Source: Chitiniphilus purpureus
GTDB lineage: Bacteria; Pseudomonadota; Gammaproteobacteria; Burkholderiales; Chitinibacteraceae
Assembly: GCF_025642115.1 (NCBI RefSeq)
Contig: NZ_CP106753.1
Coordinates: 3,411,501 to 3,475,500, forward strand
Direction of reading: 5' to 3'
Length of the DNA: 64,000 bases
This document shows, piece by piece, positions 4,501 through 19,686 of this stretch. The translations under genes were made by a program, and so were the position numbers. The notes beneath the pieces are model-generated. The model searched no databases. It was not told where the DNA came from and was given only the letters and a program-made list of their open reading frames with translations. Every line of letters starts with the position of its first letter. The first letter of the stretch is position 1.

Positions 4501-5388
4501 TCACAGCAGGCCTCCTTGACCGTAGTCGCGGCGCTGCCCATCGTCGTAGCTGGGGCGGCAAACAGGCTTGGCAGCCCCAGGCTGCTTGACCTCATCCTCC
4601 CAGCGCTTGGCATTCAGCCACGTTGCGGCGTGTGGAACGAACTGCCCACCCTGCTTTAGCCAATCCGGCAAACGGGACTGCACAGCCAGCGCCGACAAAA
4701 TCTGGGCTTGCAACTCGGCATCCGGCTTCAGCTTCTCCCAGCGTTTGCGAGCGGCATCCTTCGCGACCTTTTTCGGGTAGGCATCCCAGAACTCAGCGAA
4801 GCCGTCAGGCGTAGCGGCTGGGGGTTGGGGGGTAGGTGTTGGTTTTCCCTCGTGTGTGGGGGTGTGGGTATGGGGGGTGTGGGGGGAAAGGGCGAGGGGG
4901 AGAGAGGCCCCACTTACTGCCAGCGAGTTACCGTCTACGGTAAGACTTACCGTCTGCGGTATACCGTGTACGGTAAGTGCCACCATTGAGTTACCGCCTA
5001 CGGTAAGTGGTGACTTACCGTCTGTGGTAAGTGCACTTACCTTCTGCGGTAACTGCTCAGCCGCCGAACGGAACTCATACAGGCGGCCGTCCTCGCACTC
5101 CGTCACCGTTAAAATGCCATGTCGCTTTAACTCGGCGACGGCATTCGAGACATGCGTCTGCTGCATGCCCAGTCGATCAGCGACGGCCTTCTGCTCGATC
5201 GGCCTCTGATGCCCGCCCAGTTCGACGATGGCCAGCGCAACGCGCAACGTGCGTGCGCCGCTGATGTCAGTGTCAAGCAGCAGCGTGTTGATCTGGGCAA
5301 CATCCATAGTGCCCCCTGGATGGTTGGCCGCGCCGTAGGACGTGATGCAGTCGCCTTGATAGTCGGCGAGATAGGCAAGCGCCCTCAC
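4501..5388 (-). CDS. O-like phage replication initiator carrying the origin
   Basis: A protein of 295 aa. Residues about 45-100 form a winged helix (AVADRLGMQQTHVSNAVAEL). A low-complexity Pro/Thr/His linker follows, and the C-terminus has the module common to phage O/DnaT-like replication proteins (FAEFWDAYPKKVAKDAARKR ... FVPHAATWLNAKRWEDE). The gene itself contains six iterons (4928-5052), as lambda O contains its origin. The GTG start at 5388 overlaps the previous stop (GTGA) and has a GGAGGG site; an ATG at 5307 with AGGGGG upstream is a good alternative (268 aa). It is expected to bind the iterons and recruit a helicase, but no helicase or loader gene follows. Confidence 0.85.
   Translation of the reverse strand: MRALAYLADYQGDCITSYGAANHPGGTMDVAQINTLLLDTDISGARTLRVALAIVELGGHQRPIEQKAVADRLGMQQTHVSNAVAELKRHGILTVTECEDGRLYEFRSAAEQLPQKVSALTTDGKSPLTVGGNSMVALTVHGIPQTVSLTVDGNSLAVSGASLPLALSPHTPHTHTPTHEGKPTPTPQPPAATPDGFAEFWDAYPKKVAKDAARKRWEKLKPDAELQAQILSALAVQSRLPDWLKQGGQFVPHAATWLNAKRWEDEVKQPGAAKPVCRPSYDDGQRRDYGQGGLL
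4812..4911. other. Strongly strand-biased G-rich tract beside the iterons
   Basis: The plus strand holds many runs of three to six G with almost no C between them, such as ggggttggggggtaggtg and ggggggtgtggggggaaagg. In the replication protein this encodes a His/Pro/Thr linker (SPHTPHTHTPTHEGKPTPTP). Its place next to the iterons corresponds to the easily melted region of lambda-type origins. Here the asymmetry is G/C rather than A/T, and G-quadruplex formation is possible. Confidence 0.6.
4928..5052. repeat. Six palindromic iterons, probable prophage replication origin
   Basis: Six copies of a 16-bp imperfect palindrome with consensus TTACCGTCTACGGTAA lie at 4928-4943, 4947-4962, 4961-4976, 4991-5006, 5015-5030 and 5037-5052. 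Copies 2 and 3 share two bases. Differences are mostly in the four central bases. They lie inside the replication initiator gene, in its linker-coding part, next to a G-rich tract. This is the lambda/P22 arrangement of an origin in the O gene, so these are the expected initiator binding sites. Confidence 0.85.
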
Positions 5389-6177: not shown

Positions 6178-6213
6178 GTCAAGTAAACTCTGCCGCGGGC
6201 AACTAAAGTTGTT
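6178..6213. promoter_or_regulatory. Two operator-like palindromes downstream of the cro-like gene
   Basis: The site at 6198-6213 (GGCAACTAAAGTTGTT) shares the CAACTAAAGTTG core with the operators at 9345-9389. A weaker copy (GTCAAGTAAACTCTGC, 10 of 16 matches) is at 6178-6193. They lie between the Cro-like gene and the 73-aa gene, so repressor could also act here. Confidence 0.5.
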
Positions 6214-6249: not shown

Positions 6250-6456
6250 TCATGACTCGCTATCCCGGCGCTCCTGCCGCGGGGACACCACGAGGAACCC
6301 ACGAGCTACTAGCCGCCCGACGCCTGATTCAGGAACGATTCCTGATCTGCGCCATTTGTTGATCGCTGTCCTCGACAGACCAAGTTGACGCGAGATCTCT
6401 GCATCAATGCCTGGCCGGTCGCCGCCAAAAAGGGTAAGTAGGGTGTCGAATTTCAT
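6250..6456 (-). CDS. Cro-like repressor, 68 aa
   Basis: A small helix-turn-helix protein: residues about 15-37 (GIDAEISRQLGLSRTAINKW) form the DNA-binding unit typical of Cro-type proteins, and the C-terminus is basic. It is divergent from the repressor gene at 6527 and opens the leftward early operon. No Shine-Dalgarno sequence precedes the ATG at 6456. A candidate promoter (-35 TTGCAC at 6491-6486, -10 TTTACT at 6468-6463, 17-bp spacer) would place the transcript start almost on the ATG, so the mRNA may be leaderless. Predicted role: control of the lysis/lysogeny switch. Confidence 0.85.
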   Translation of the reverse strand: MKFDTLLTLFGGDRPGIDAEISRQLGLSRTAINKWRRSGIVPESGVGRLVARGFLVVSPRQERRDSES

Positions 6457-6462
6457 AGATGC

Positions 6463-6527
6463 AGTAAACCATAGTTCACCGCAAAGTGCAACCGAAGTTT
6501 ACCGTTCAGCTGTTAACCTAGGTTGCA
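6463..6527. promoter_or_regulatory. Immunity operator region with three 16-bp operators and early promoter
   Basis: Three dyads of consensus GTNAACCTARGTTNAC lie at 6464-6479 (GTAAACCATAGTTCAC), 6487-6502 (TGCAACCGAAGTTTAC) and 6512-6527 (GTTAACCTAGGTTGCA), centre spacing 23 and 25 bp. They occupy the whole gap between the divergent cro-like and repressor genes, as in lambda OR. The candidate leftward promoter has its -35 in the second and its -10 in the first. The third reaches the A of the repressor ATG. Confidence 0.82.
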
Positions 6528-6937
6528 TGACGAATCTTGCTGACCGCCTAGAGCAGGCGCTAAATGAAAAGAAGCGCACGGACCGCACGGCAAGCCGAGC
6601 CGGCCTAGCGCGCTATGTGGGGATATCTAAGACGGCGGTGGGGAAATGGTTTAACGGAGATACGCAGATCATCGACCCCAGGTACGCGCCCAAAGCCGCG
6701 GAATACCTGGGTGTCAATGAGCGCTGGCTACAGCATGGTCAAGGCACGATGAGTGCCGGGGAAGCAGCCACAGGGCACCCGTCAGAAGACGGGGAGGCGC
6801 TCCGTCTGCAACGAGTGCGCTTGTTCTCCGAGCAGTTGTATCGGCTGGTCGGGGGGATGAGCGACCAGGAGGCCGAGGAAACGCTAAAGATCATGTCTGA
6901 AATCGCAGAAGCCAAGGCTATGCGGCATCGGCGATAG
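6527..6937 (+). CDS. CI-type prophage repressor without a cleavage domain, 136 aa
   Basis: The N-terminal half (residues about 5-60) is a Cro/CI helix-turn-helix domain, with SRAGLARYVGISKTAVGKWF and the conserved APKAAEYLGVNERWLQHGQG end. The C-terminal half is short and helical, and there is no room for an S24 LexA-type peptidase, so this repressor is not obviously RecA-cleavable. I start at the ATG at 6527, where the domain begins, although the frame stays open further upstream through the operators. It faces the cro-like gene across three operators, one covering its own start codon, which suggests self-regulation. Confidence 0.88.
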   Translation: MTNLADRLEQALNEKKRTDRTASRAGLARYVGISKTAVGKWFNGDTQIIDPRYAPKAAEYLGVNERWLQHGQGTMSAGEAATGHPSEDGEALRLQRVRLFSEQLYRLVGGMSDQEAEETLKIMSEIAEAKAMRHRR

Positions 6938-9325: not shown

Positions 9326-9389
9326 GTAAACCTAGGTTTACTTGGTCAACTAGAGTTGACGAAAGCGGGTATAGTCAACTAAAGTTCAC
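9326..9389. promoter_or_regulatory. Second cluster of three repressor-type operators
   Basis: Three 16-bp dyads match the immunity-region consensus: 9326-9341 GTAAACCTAGGTTTAC (a perfect palindrome), 9345-9360 GTCAACTAGAGTTGAC (7-bp arms, two central bases) and 9374-9389 GTCAACTAAAGTTCAC. They lie between the divergent LuxR-like gene (start 9210) and the repeat-protein gene (start 9492). The dyads themselves supply TTGAC -35-like elements on both strands, but no good -10 box is evident. Phage repressor or Cro is expected to regulate one or both flanking genes. Confidence 0.8.
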
Positions 9390-9491
9390 TCAACACAGCG
9401 CAACACACAGCGCCCCGCTCTTTAACAACCCGCAGCAAGAAACGGCAGCCATCCGCCGTGATGTGTCGGCAGCGACCGATACGCGAAGAGG

Positions 9492-10484
9492 ATGAACAAC
9501 GCCGATGCGCGAAGCGAGCTTGCCCGGCATACGGGTGATTCGAAGGTGGCGAGCAAAACCGTGGAATTGAAAGCCGAACTTTCCATTGCCGGCCTGGTGA
9601 AGGCGGCGATCGAATACACCATGAGCAAATGCCAGCCGGTCGACCCCGAATCACCCGCCAGCAGCACCGGCGACTACGGCGCAGCCAGCAGCACCGGCTA
9701 CCGAGGCGCAGCCAGCAGCACCGGCGACTACGGCGCAGCCAGCAGCACCGGCTACCAAGGCGCAGCCAGCAGCACCGGCGACTACGGCGCAGCCAGCAGC
9801 ACCGGCTACCAAGGCGCAGCCAGCAGCACCGGCAACCAAGGCGCAGCCAGCAGCACCGGCAACCGAGGCGCAGCCAGCAGCACCGGCAACCAAGGCGCAG
9901 CCAGCAGCACCGGCGACTACGGCGCAGCCAGCAGCACCGGCAACCAAGGCGCAGCCAGCAGCACCGGCGACTACGGCGCAGCCAGCAGCACCGGCTACCA
10001 AGGCGCAGCCAGCAGCACCGGCAACCGAGGCGCAGCCAGCAGCACCGGCAACCGAGGCGCAGCCAGCAGCACCGGCAACCAAGGCGCAGCCAGCAGCACC
10101 GGCAACCGAGGCGCAGCCAGCAGCACCGGCAACCAAGGCGCAGCCAGCAGCACCGGCGACTACGGCGCAGCCAGCAGCACCGGCAACCAAGGCGCAGCCA
10201 GCAGCACCGGCGACTACGGCGCAGCCAGCAGCACCGGCTACCAAGGCGCAGCCAGCAGCACCGGCAACCGAGGCGCAGCCAGCAGCACCGGCAAGCACGC
10301 AGTGGCACTAGCCTCCGGTTTTGGAGGTCGCGCAATGGCCGCAGAAACGGGTGCCATCGTGCTGGTGTACCGCAATGACGACGGTGAGGTCGTGCACATC
10401 CGCGCAAGCAAGGTCGGCGAGAACGGCATTAAGCCGCACGTTTTTTACATGCTGAACGCTGACGGGGAATTCGTGGAGGCCTGA
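9492..10484 (+). CDS. DUF7666-like repeat protein, N-terminus short, 330 aa
   Basis: A short N-terminal part (KVASKTVELKAELSIAGLVK then AAIEYTM) leads into 23 full copies of a nine-residue repeat ASSTGxxGA, then a conserved C-terminal domain (GFGGRAMAAETGAIVLVYRN; NGIKPHVFYMLNADGEFVEA). From memory, this plan (short beta module, nine-residue Ala/Gly repeats, final KIKPxTWY-like module) fits proteins now named DUF7666. Those usually have an additional domain of about 70 residues in front, which is missing here: the frame is closed by TGA at 9459 and the first start is the ATG at 9492, with AAGAGG immediately before it. Function unknown. Three phage operators lie 100-165 bp upstream, and a 50-aa gene is translationally coupled behind. 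Confidence 0.75.
   Translation: MNNADARSELARHTGDSKVASKTVELKAELSIAGLVKAAIEYTMSKCQPVDPESPASSTGDYGAASSTGYRGAASSTGDYGAASSTGYQGAASSTGDYGAASSTGYQGAASSTGNQGAASSTGNRGAASSTGNQGAASSTGDYGAASSTGNQGAASSTGDYGAASSTGYQGAASSTGNRGAASSTGNRGAASSTGNQGAASSTGNRGAASSTGNQGAASSTGDYGAASSTGNQGAASSTGDYGAASSTGYQGAASSTGNRGAASSTGKHAVALASGFGGRAMAAETGAIVLVYRNDDGEVVHIRASKVGENGIKPHVFYMLNADGEFVEA
9657..10295 (+). repeat. 27-bp minisatellite, 23 full units plus a partial unit
   Basis: Unit: gccagcagcaccggc, six variable bases, ggcgca. By eye the 21 constant bases are identical in all units. The variable codon pairs are GAC-TAC, TAC-CGA, TAC-CAA, AAC-CAA or AAC-CGA, giving DY, YR, YQ, NQ or NR. Order: DY YR DY YQ DY YQ NQ NR NQ DY NQ DY YQ NR NR NQ NR NQ DY NQ DY YQ NR, then a diverging unit with KH. 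Units 7-14 (9819-10034) repeat exactly in order as units 16-23 (10062-10277). A 27-bp period keeps all six frames open, creating false ORFs. Confidence 0.95.
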
Positions 10485-19609: not shown

Positions 19610-19655
19610 TGGTCGGAATGGCGGGATTCGAACTCGCGACCCCTTGCACCCCATG
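19610..19655. other. Probable prophage attachment region at the tRNA-Pro 3' end
   Basis: Integrases of this type commonly use tRNA 3' ends, and the prophage ends precisely here with the tRNA gene intact. The identical core cannot be measured because the other att copy is outside the window. Confidence 0.55.
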
Positions 19656-19686
19656 CAAGTGCGCTACCAGGCTGCGCTACATTCCG
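19610..19686 (-). tRNA. tRNA-Pro (GGG)
   Basis: 77-nt tRNA on the minus strand. Acceptor CGGAATG pairs with CATTCCG, followed by ACCA encoded in the gene. The anticodon stem CTTGC/GCAAG encloses loop ATGGGGT with anticodon GGG. The T arm reads GAGTTCGAATC. The gene marks the boundary between prophage and chromosome. Confidence 0.96.

Follow-up and report, generated by a model that had tools for sequence, protein, structure and literature searches.

A homogenised tandem repeat with diverse residue pairs in a prophage protein and its phage relatives

Results

The window, a 64,000-nucleotide stretch of the Chitiniphilus purpureus genome (contig NZ_CP106753.1, positions 3,411,501 to 3,475,500), carries a prophage in which one open reading frame of 330 amino acids (9492..10484, plus strand) comprises a short remnant of the region that follows the N-terminal domain in relatives, a repeat array and a C-terminal domain. 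The array, which the preliminary description had rightly recognised as near-identical 27-bp units, consists of 23 exact units at 9657..10277 on the plus strand. They encode 23 nine-residue repeats of the form ASSTG-X1X2-GA that differ only at the two adjacent residues X1X2: DY in seven units, NQ in six, NR in five, YQ in four and YR in one. A partial 24th unit (ASSTG, then KH) forms the transition into the C-terminal domain, and this capping unit (ASSTGKHAV) and the domain itself (10278..10484, plus strand) are common to relatives; TRF places the extent of the array at 9657-10294. The variable bases had been described as a six-base window. They are indeed confined to two codons, but only four of the six positions vary (unit columns 16, 19, 20 and 21), the other 23 columns being invariant in 23/23 units; the probability that four variable columns all fall by chance inside one given 6-column window is 8.5e-4. 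Units 7-14 recur in exact order as units 16-23, and an order of at least eight units is repeated in 3 of 20,000 shuffles. The underlying duplication, previously given as a 243-bp block, is an exact repeat of 240 bp (9812..10051 and 10055..10294, plus strand) at an offset of 243 bp, which corresponds to a period of nine units. The start codon of the frame is uncertain: a purine-rich AAGAGG directly abuts the ATG and makes an unconvincing ribosome-binding site.

The gene lies downstream of a CI-like repressor gene of the HTH_3 type on the same strand (6407..6937, plus strand), and an O-like phage replication initiation gene diverges from its operon (4501..5388, minus strand). The prophage further encodes an NGO0469-type replication protein, Gp157, an Ead-like protein and, at the distal end of the array gene's left-type operon, the phage integrase (18531..19562, plus strand) adjoining tRNA-Pro (19610-19686). 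About 100 bp ahead of the array frame sits an operator-like palindrome, GTCAACTAGAGTTGAC (9345..9360), with five matches at up to three mismatches, two sites being counted on both strands, against 0.22 expected. A second operator-like site with one mismatch (9374..9389) pairs with it, a promoter-like sequence (9356..9385, plus strand; one found against 0.2 expected) overlaps both, and a weaker operator-like site occurs near the repressor gene (6198-6213). Short tandem repeats of 22-33 bp inside the O-like gene (4912-5056) are possibly origin iterons. Setting aside near-duplicate records, two records with 1.5-kb flanks only and one unannotated record leaves 14 distinct annotated contexts of relatives, of which 11 have a same-strand gene of repressor type upstream; within the stretches examined for 5371, P7869 and phi1 no such gene is found. 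In the Salmonella phage SEN22, N and a superinfection-exclusion gene on the opposite strand are followed by the array gene and then by a recombination exonuclease. A short relative also occurs, together with a small phage immunity region and ParA, in 5.87-kb circular Salmonella records (CP148862.1).

This context is similar to the accessory section of a left operon of the lambda type, and expression as an early non-structural protein is therefore likely. The gene had earlier been likened to a phase- or antigen-variable one. A surface antigen now appears the less probable product: the gene belongs to a repressor-proximal operon, structural genes lie away from it in the annotated phages compared, and the N-terminal part of one relative bears the NCBIfam name of a phage non-structural protein. 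Phase variation fares no better, because the 27-bp units always remain in frame and provide no on/off switch.

The array protein matches the profile of PHROG 4433, a family of unassigned function, with an E-value of 1.4e-84 over residues 145-329, which include the C-terminal domain. A Pfam scan of the same protein returns Collagen only; DUF7666 (PF24703) is absent from it. The Collagen match (PF01391) exceeds the cut-off but is compositional and was rejected: the unit is nine residues long with glycine only at positions 5 and 8, and the AlphaFold2 (AF2) models predict beta-strands. Two protein searches with different queries retrieved 3,642 relatives among 7,996 scored candidates (first search, 5.8 billion proteins) and 5,827 among 7,998 (second search). 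The precomputed Pfam column assigns DUF7666 to 120/120 relatives among the matches listed for the first search, and alignment and scanning confirm it in 50/50 of the listed relatives examined. The phage proteins of the DUF7666/PHROG 4433 family thus share their repeat and C-terminal parts with the window protein and differ from it in carrying the DUF7666 domain, some with an A1S_2505-type extension at the N-terminus. Judged by these similarities, the window protein is an array and C-terminal-domain homologue of the family without the DUF7666 domain. Alignment to a congeneric genome, whose array matches a Chitiniphilus eburneus record, shows homology at the promoter region (9385-9431) that resumes inside the gene at 9524; about 1 kb, including the region coding for the N-terminal domain, is missing from the window copy. 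Because its start codon is poorly supported, the window copy may be an altered, decaying or inactive version of the gene.

Several observations concern the N-terminal parts of relatives. A model of the DUF7666 domain of one relative (P0005, residues 1-115, a part absent from the window copy) bears a possible resemblance to ADP-ribosyltransferase folds, and its BFVD matches, at weak E-values, include RIIB lysis inhibitors as well as proteins of giant viruses, of which some contain ankyrin repeats. Proteins P0092, P0004, P0040 and P0062 have an additional N-terminal part ahead of DUF7666, as does locus L065 from position 2320; the extension is A1S_2505-type in P0092 (macrodomain-like by published threading) and DUF7831 in L065. 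In an IMG/VR record (3300012840_000003, frame from 2605) the array and C-terminal domain stand behind an unrelated N-terminus. The host genome separately encodes an Arr-type rifampin ADP-ribosyltransferase (G000:C1:2123628-2123924; PF12120, E-value 2.6e-50), the sole match in the 274 genomes of the class sample. The open-licence literature yielded no paper on DUF7666, and none on this repeat system by title or beginning of abstract.

The AF2 model of a relative alternates strands and turns, with X1 in the turn at 12/12 seven-residue strands; the final units form shorter, irregular strands. Each nine-residue unit is thus probably one beta-strand of a solenoid in the predicted structure, with the variable pair at a corner. 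For the solenoid, pLDDT is ~58-79 in the relative's model and 34-77 in that of the window protein, and each of the two models matches a different type of beta-solenoid, so that we infer the exposure of X1X2 at the corner from a model of moderate confidence.

To compare silent and residue diversity we parsed 79 arrays from the window and from IMG/VR, GTDB, phage and plasmid records, many of them short-read assemblies. After removal of capping units, four arrays fell below six units and seven were dropped as identical or contained, which left 68. Thirteen loci had been left out before parsing as repeats of the window or of the congener, or as having long flanks, and loci were read in plus-strand frames only, which missed one minus-strand array (L119) whose product (P0026) was nevertheless included in the protein set. 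Diversity inside an array is very low at the fourfold sites of the backbone, with a median pi of 0, a mean of 0.040 and exactly zero in 40/68 arrays; at positions 1 and 2 of the X codons the median pi is 0.413. X diversity exceeds fourfold diversity in 68/68 arrays, and in 35/35 when one array is kept per backbone (p 5.8e-11). The earlier impression that silent sites are homogenised while the window stays diverse therefore extends to every non-identical array of the set. From one array to another, however, the consensus at fourfold sites differs by 0.50, and 35 backbones occur, so that codon constraint does not account for the silent invariance. Each residue is written with one codon within an array in 179 of 181 residue groups (83 expected), and in 60/68 arrays all X1 codons end in the same base, irrespective of the residue encoded. 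Three phages carry two backbone haplotypes in sizeable numbers within one array, with DY on both haplotypes in two of them, as in a homogenisation still in progress.

Diversity of the pair is universal in the protein sets as well. Arrays of at least six units are present in 107 of the 120 proteins listed for the first search, 13 having no such run; 0/107 are monomorphic at X1X2 and the median array has five pairs. All 120 proteins listed for the second search have arrays, of 9-18 units, again with none monomorphic and a median of four pairs. The pairs are non-random: DY (302 against 153 expected), YQ (456 against 264) and NR (202 against 103) are in excess and YY is depleted (22 against 140), in an alphabet biased by the DY/YQ/NQ-containing patterns with which the IMG/VR and GTDB loci were found.

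Comparisons between close relatives reveal turnover of the arrays. The circular P. aeruginosa phage records NZ_CP137518 and NZ_CP137513, from strains HPA0008 and HPA0271, differ over 62.56 kb by one X1X2 window and two 1-base indels. The proposal, made in advance, that variation between strains would be limited to the six-base window is borne out in this pair, the two indels aside. Unit 17 reads DY in one record and YR in the other, and the swapped-in pair is one that the array already holds, in the unit that follows. The difference looks like unit-to-unit conversion, though one of the two assemblies may contain a polishing error. YA3 and Flu_PA14_4 are alike at 328/330 and 249/250 flanking bases, and the two arrays, 28 and 27 units long (29 and 28 with the capping unit), are separated by an edit distance of 15. 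Among the 120 listed proteins of the second search, mostly from Salmonella enterica and P. aeruginosa, 117 distinct unit orders occur. Identical flanks (100 residues N-terminal, 55 C-terminal) define 19 groups with 54 proteins, and the orders all differ in 18/19 groups, by isolated pair swaps in some and wholesale reordering in others; clustering of the protein database at 90% identity thins identical proteins and partly builds in the 'all differ' outcome. The occurrence of different orders behind identical flanks is itself no product of this clustering. One pair of US records has identical 28-unit arrays, and turnover is not always fast. The suggestion of quick variation in length and pattern accordingly holds in part: number and order do differ behind near-identical or identical flanks, but not in that pair. 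Several of the BR/CF phage records (MK511039-MK511051) begin, end or seem collapsed in the array, and lengths there are unreliable. In another setting, LT-05, a Serratia symbiotica clone from experimental evolution in the laboratory, is listed with a 54-bp deletion in the 1,413-nt gene ydhT_1 in Table 2 of PMC12505973. The deletion equals two 27-bp units; the kinship of ydhT_1 to the array family and the position of the deletion in an array are putative.

Discussion

The reading to which we give somewhat better than even credence is that a repeat protein of the phage DUF7666/PHROG 4433 family undergoes concerted evolution together with diversifying selection on the corner residues of a beta-solenoid, whose repeat face binds a partner. 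The repeat protein would be a non-structural phage product, probably expressed early; in the predicted solenoid X1 would lie in the turn and X2 would open the strand. Recombination among units, through unequal crossing-over and conversion-like swaps, would homogenise the backbone and reshuffle the order, while selection on the protein would retain several residue pairs per array. Simple homogenisation would erase X diversity together with silent diversity, and selection for residue diversity is therefore the simplest cause of the pattern. Under such selection, the likeliest binding partner of the repeat face is one that varies from host to host or among competing phages, such as a host or defence factor.

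A structural explanation is unlikely but the most serious of the rivals: mixed corner residues might fold or stay soluble better than stacks of identical ones, and the order would then have no role in recognition. The small and recurrent alphabet of pairs fits this idea, as does a unit order that is near random at most lags. For X2, identity between units is under-represented at lag 1 (z -3.1) but over-represented at lag 2 (z +3.1), the pattern that stacking of unit i on unit i+2 would produce; these signals are modest among 48 tests. Taken alone, the structural explanation leaves the different orders behind identical flanks unexplained, unless order drifts freely.

A neutral origin, by unequal crossing-over in a repeat of low complexity, deserves very little credence, even though block duplications and length changes are present. 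In a crude simulation of neutral exchange, a minority of single-array snapshots resembles the observed pattern: X diversity of at least 0.25 appears in 19/479, 11/60 and 0/1 of the snapshots with zero silent diversity, whereas 38 of the 40 observed arrays without silent diversity reach this value. Neutral exchange should also affect silent and X sites alike, contrary to the excess of X diversity in every array analysed, on which ground neutral slippage as the sole cause is rejected.

Targeted mutagenesis of the window is less credible still. Diversity-generating retroelements vary codons in a fixed frame, a property the arrays share, and the X1 codons are mostly NNC/NNT with the fixed third base described above. 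Their reverse transcriptase (PF00078), however, is found in 0/10 genomes or records, the prophage's own genome included and four being possibly fragmentary virus records; backbone adenines are invariant, the pairs recur as a small linked set, and the single observed change is to a pair already in the array. An assembly artefact, suggested by the BR-series records, whose sequences break off within the array or seem to have collapsed there, is the least credible of all, given that the window comes from a single-contig 4.19-Mb genome and that the array pattern recurs in unrelated phages and circular PLSDB records.

Returning to diversifying selection on a homogenised array, a stronger version of it can be sketched by analogy with TALE repeats, which are 34-residue, alpha-helical and DNA-binding in plants. 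Like the phage units, TALE repeats are near-identical in tandem and differ mainly at two adjacent residues, the repeat-variable diresidues; the two are without homology and the likeness is one of analogy only. In such a code each strand would display its residue pair as a letter, the order would determine the bound factor, be it of host, defence or rival-phage origin, and swaps and duplications would let phages rewrite that order, the reader being fused in full-length relatives to an ADP-ribosyltransferase-like and sometimes macrodomain-like part. We hold this version to be speculative and rather improbable. Should the pairs decide binding, this widespread family would constitute a natural, shuffling recognition repeat of few letters in prokaryotic viruses, and might represent a new way in which phages come into conflict with hosts or with one another.

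A further comparison is offered by E. coli YdhT (NF007410), which has a similar C-terminal domain and nine-residue repeats that are degenerate. Unlike the window gene, ydhT is a chromosomal operon gene, and in E. coli K-12 it contains no DNA-homogeneous array. Its locus is covered to at least 80% in 5,362 of 5,426 genomes, with at least 95% identity in all 5,367 matching records.

The nearest parallel among known regimes comes from fungal NLR repeats with high internal conservation, exemplified by the WD40 repeats of het-d/het-e in Podospora. The portions of PMC12222747 and PMC4986451 consulted describe near-identity of repeats through concerted evolution, length polymorphism, and a few codon positions under diversifying selection at a predicted interaction surface; the former also relates that short-read assembly fails on these repeats, as it appears to on the BR-series phage arrays. 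The architectures differ: as portrayed there, the fungal repeats form a WD40 beta-propeller in a eukaryotic immune receptor, whereas the phage array is a nine-residue beta repeat. The phage family nonetheless shows the same regime of homogenisation with retained diversity that is known in fungal immune receptors, and its 68 arrays have the evolutionary hallmark of high-internal-conservation recognition repeats: they are homogenised and diversified at a few codon positions.
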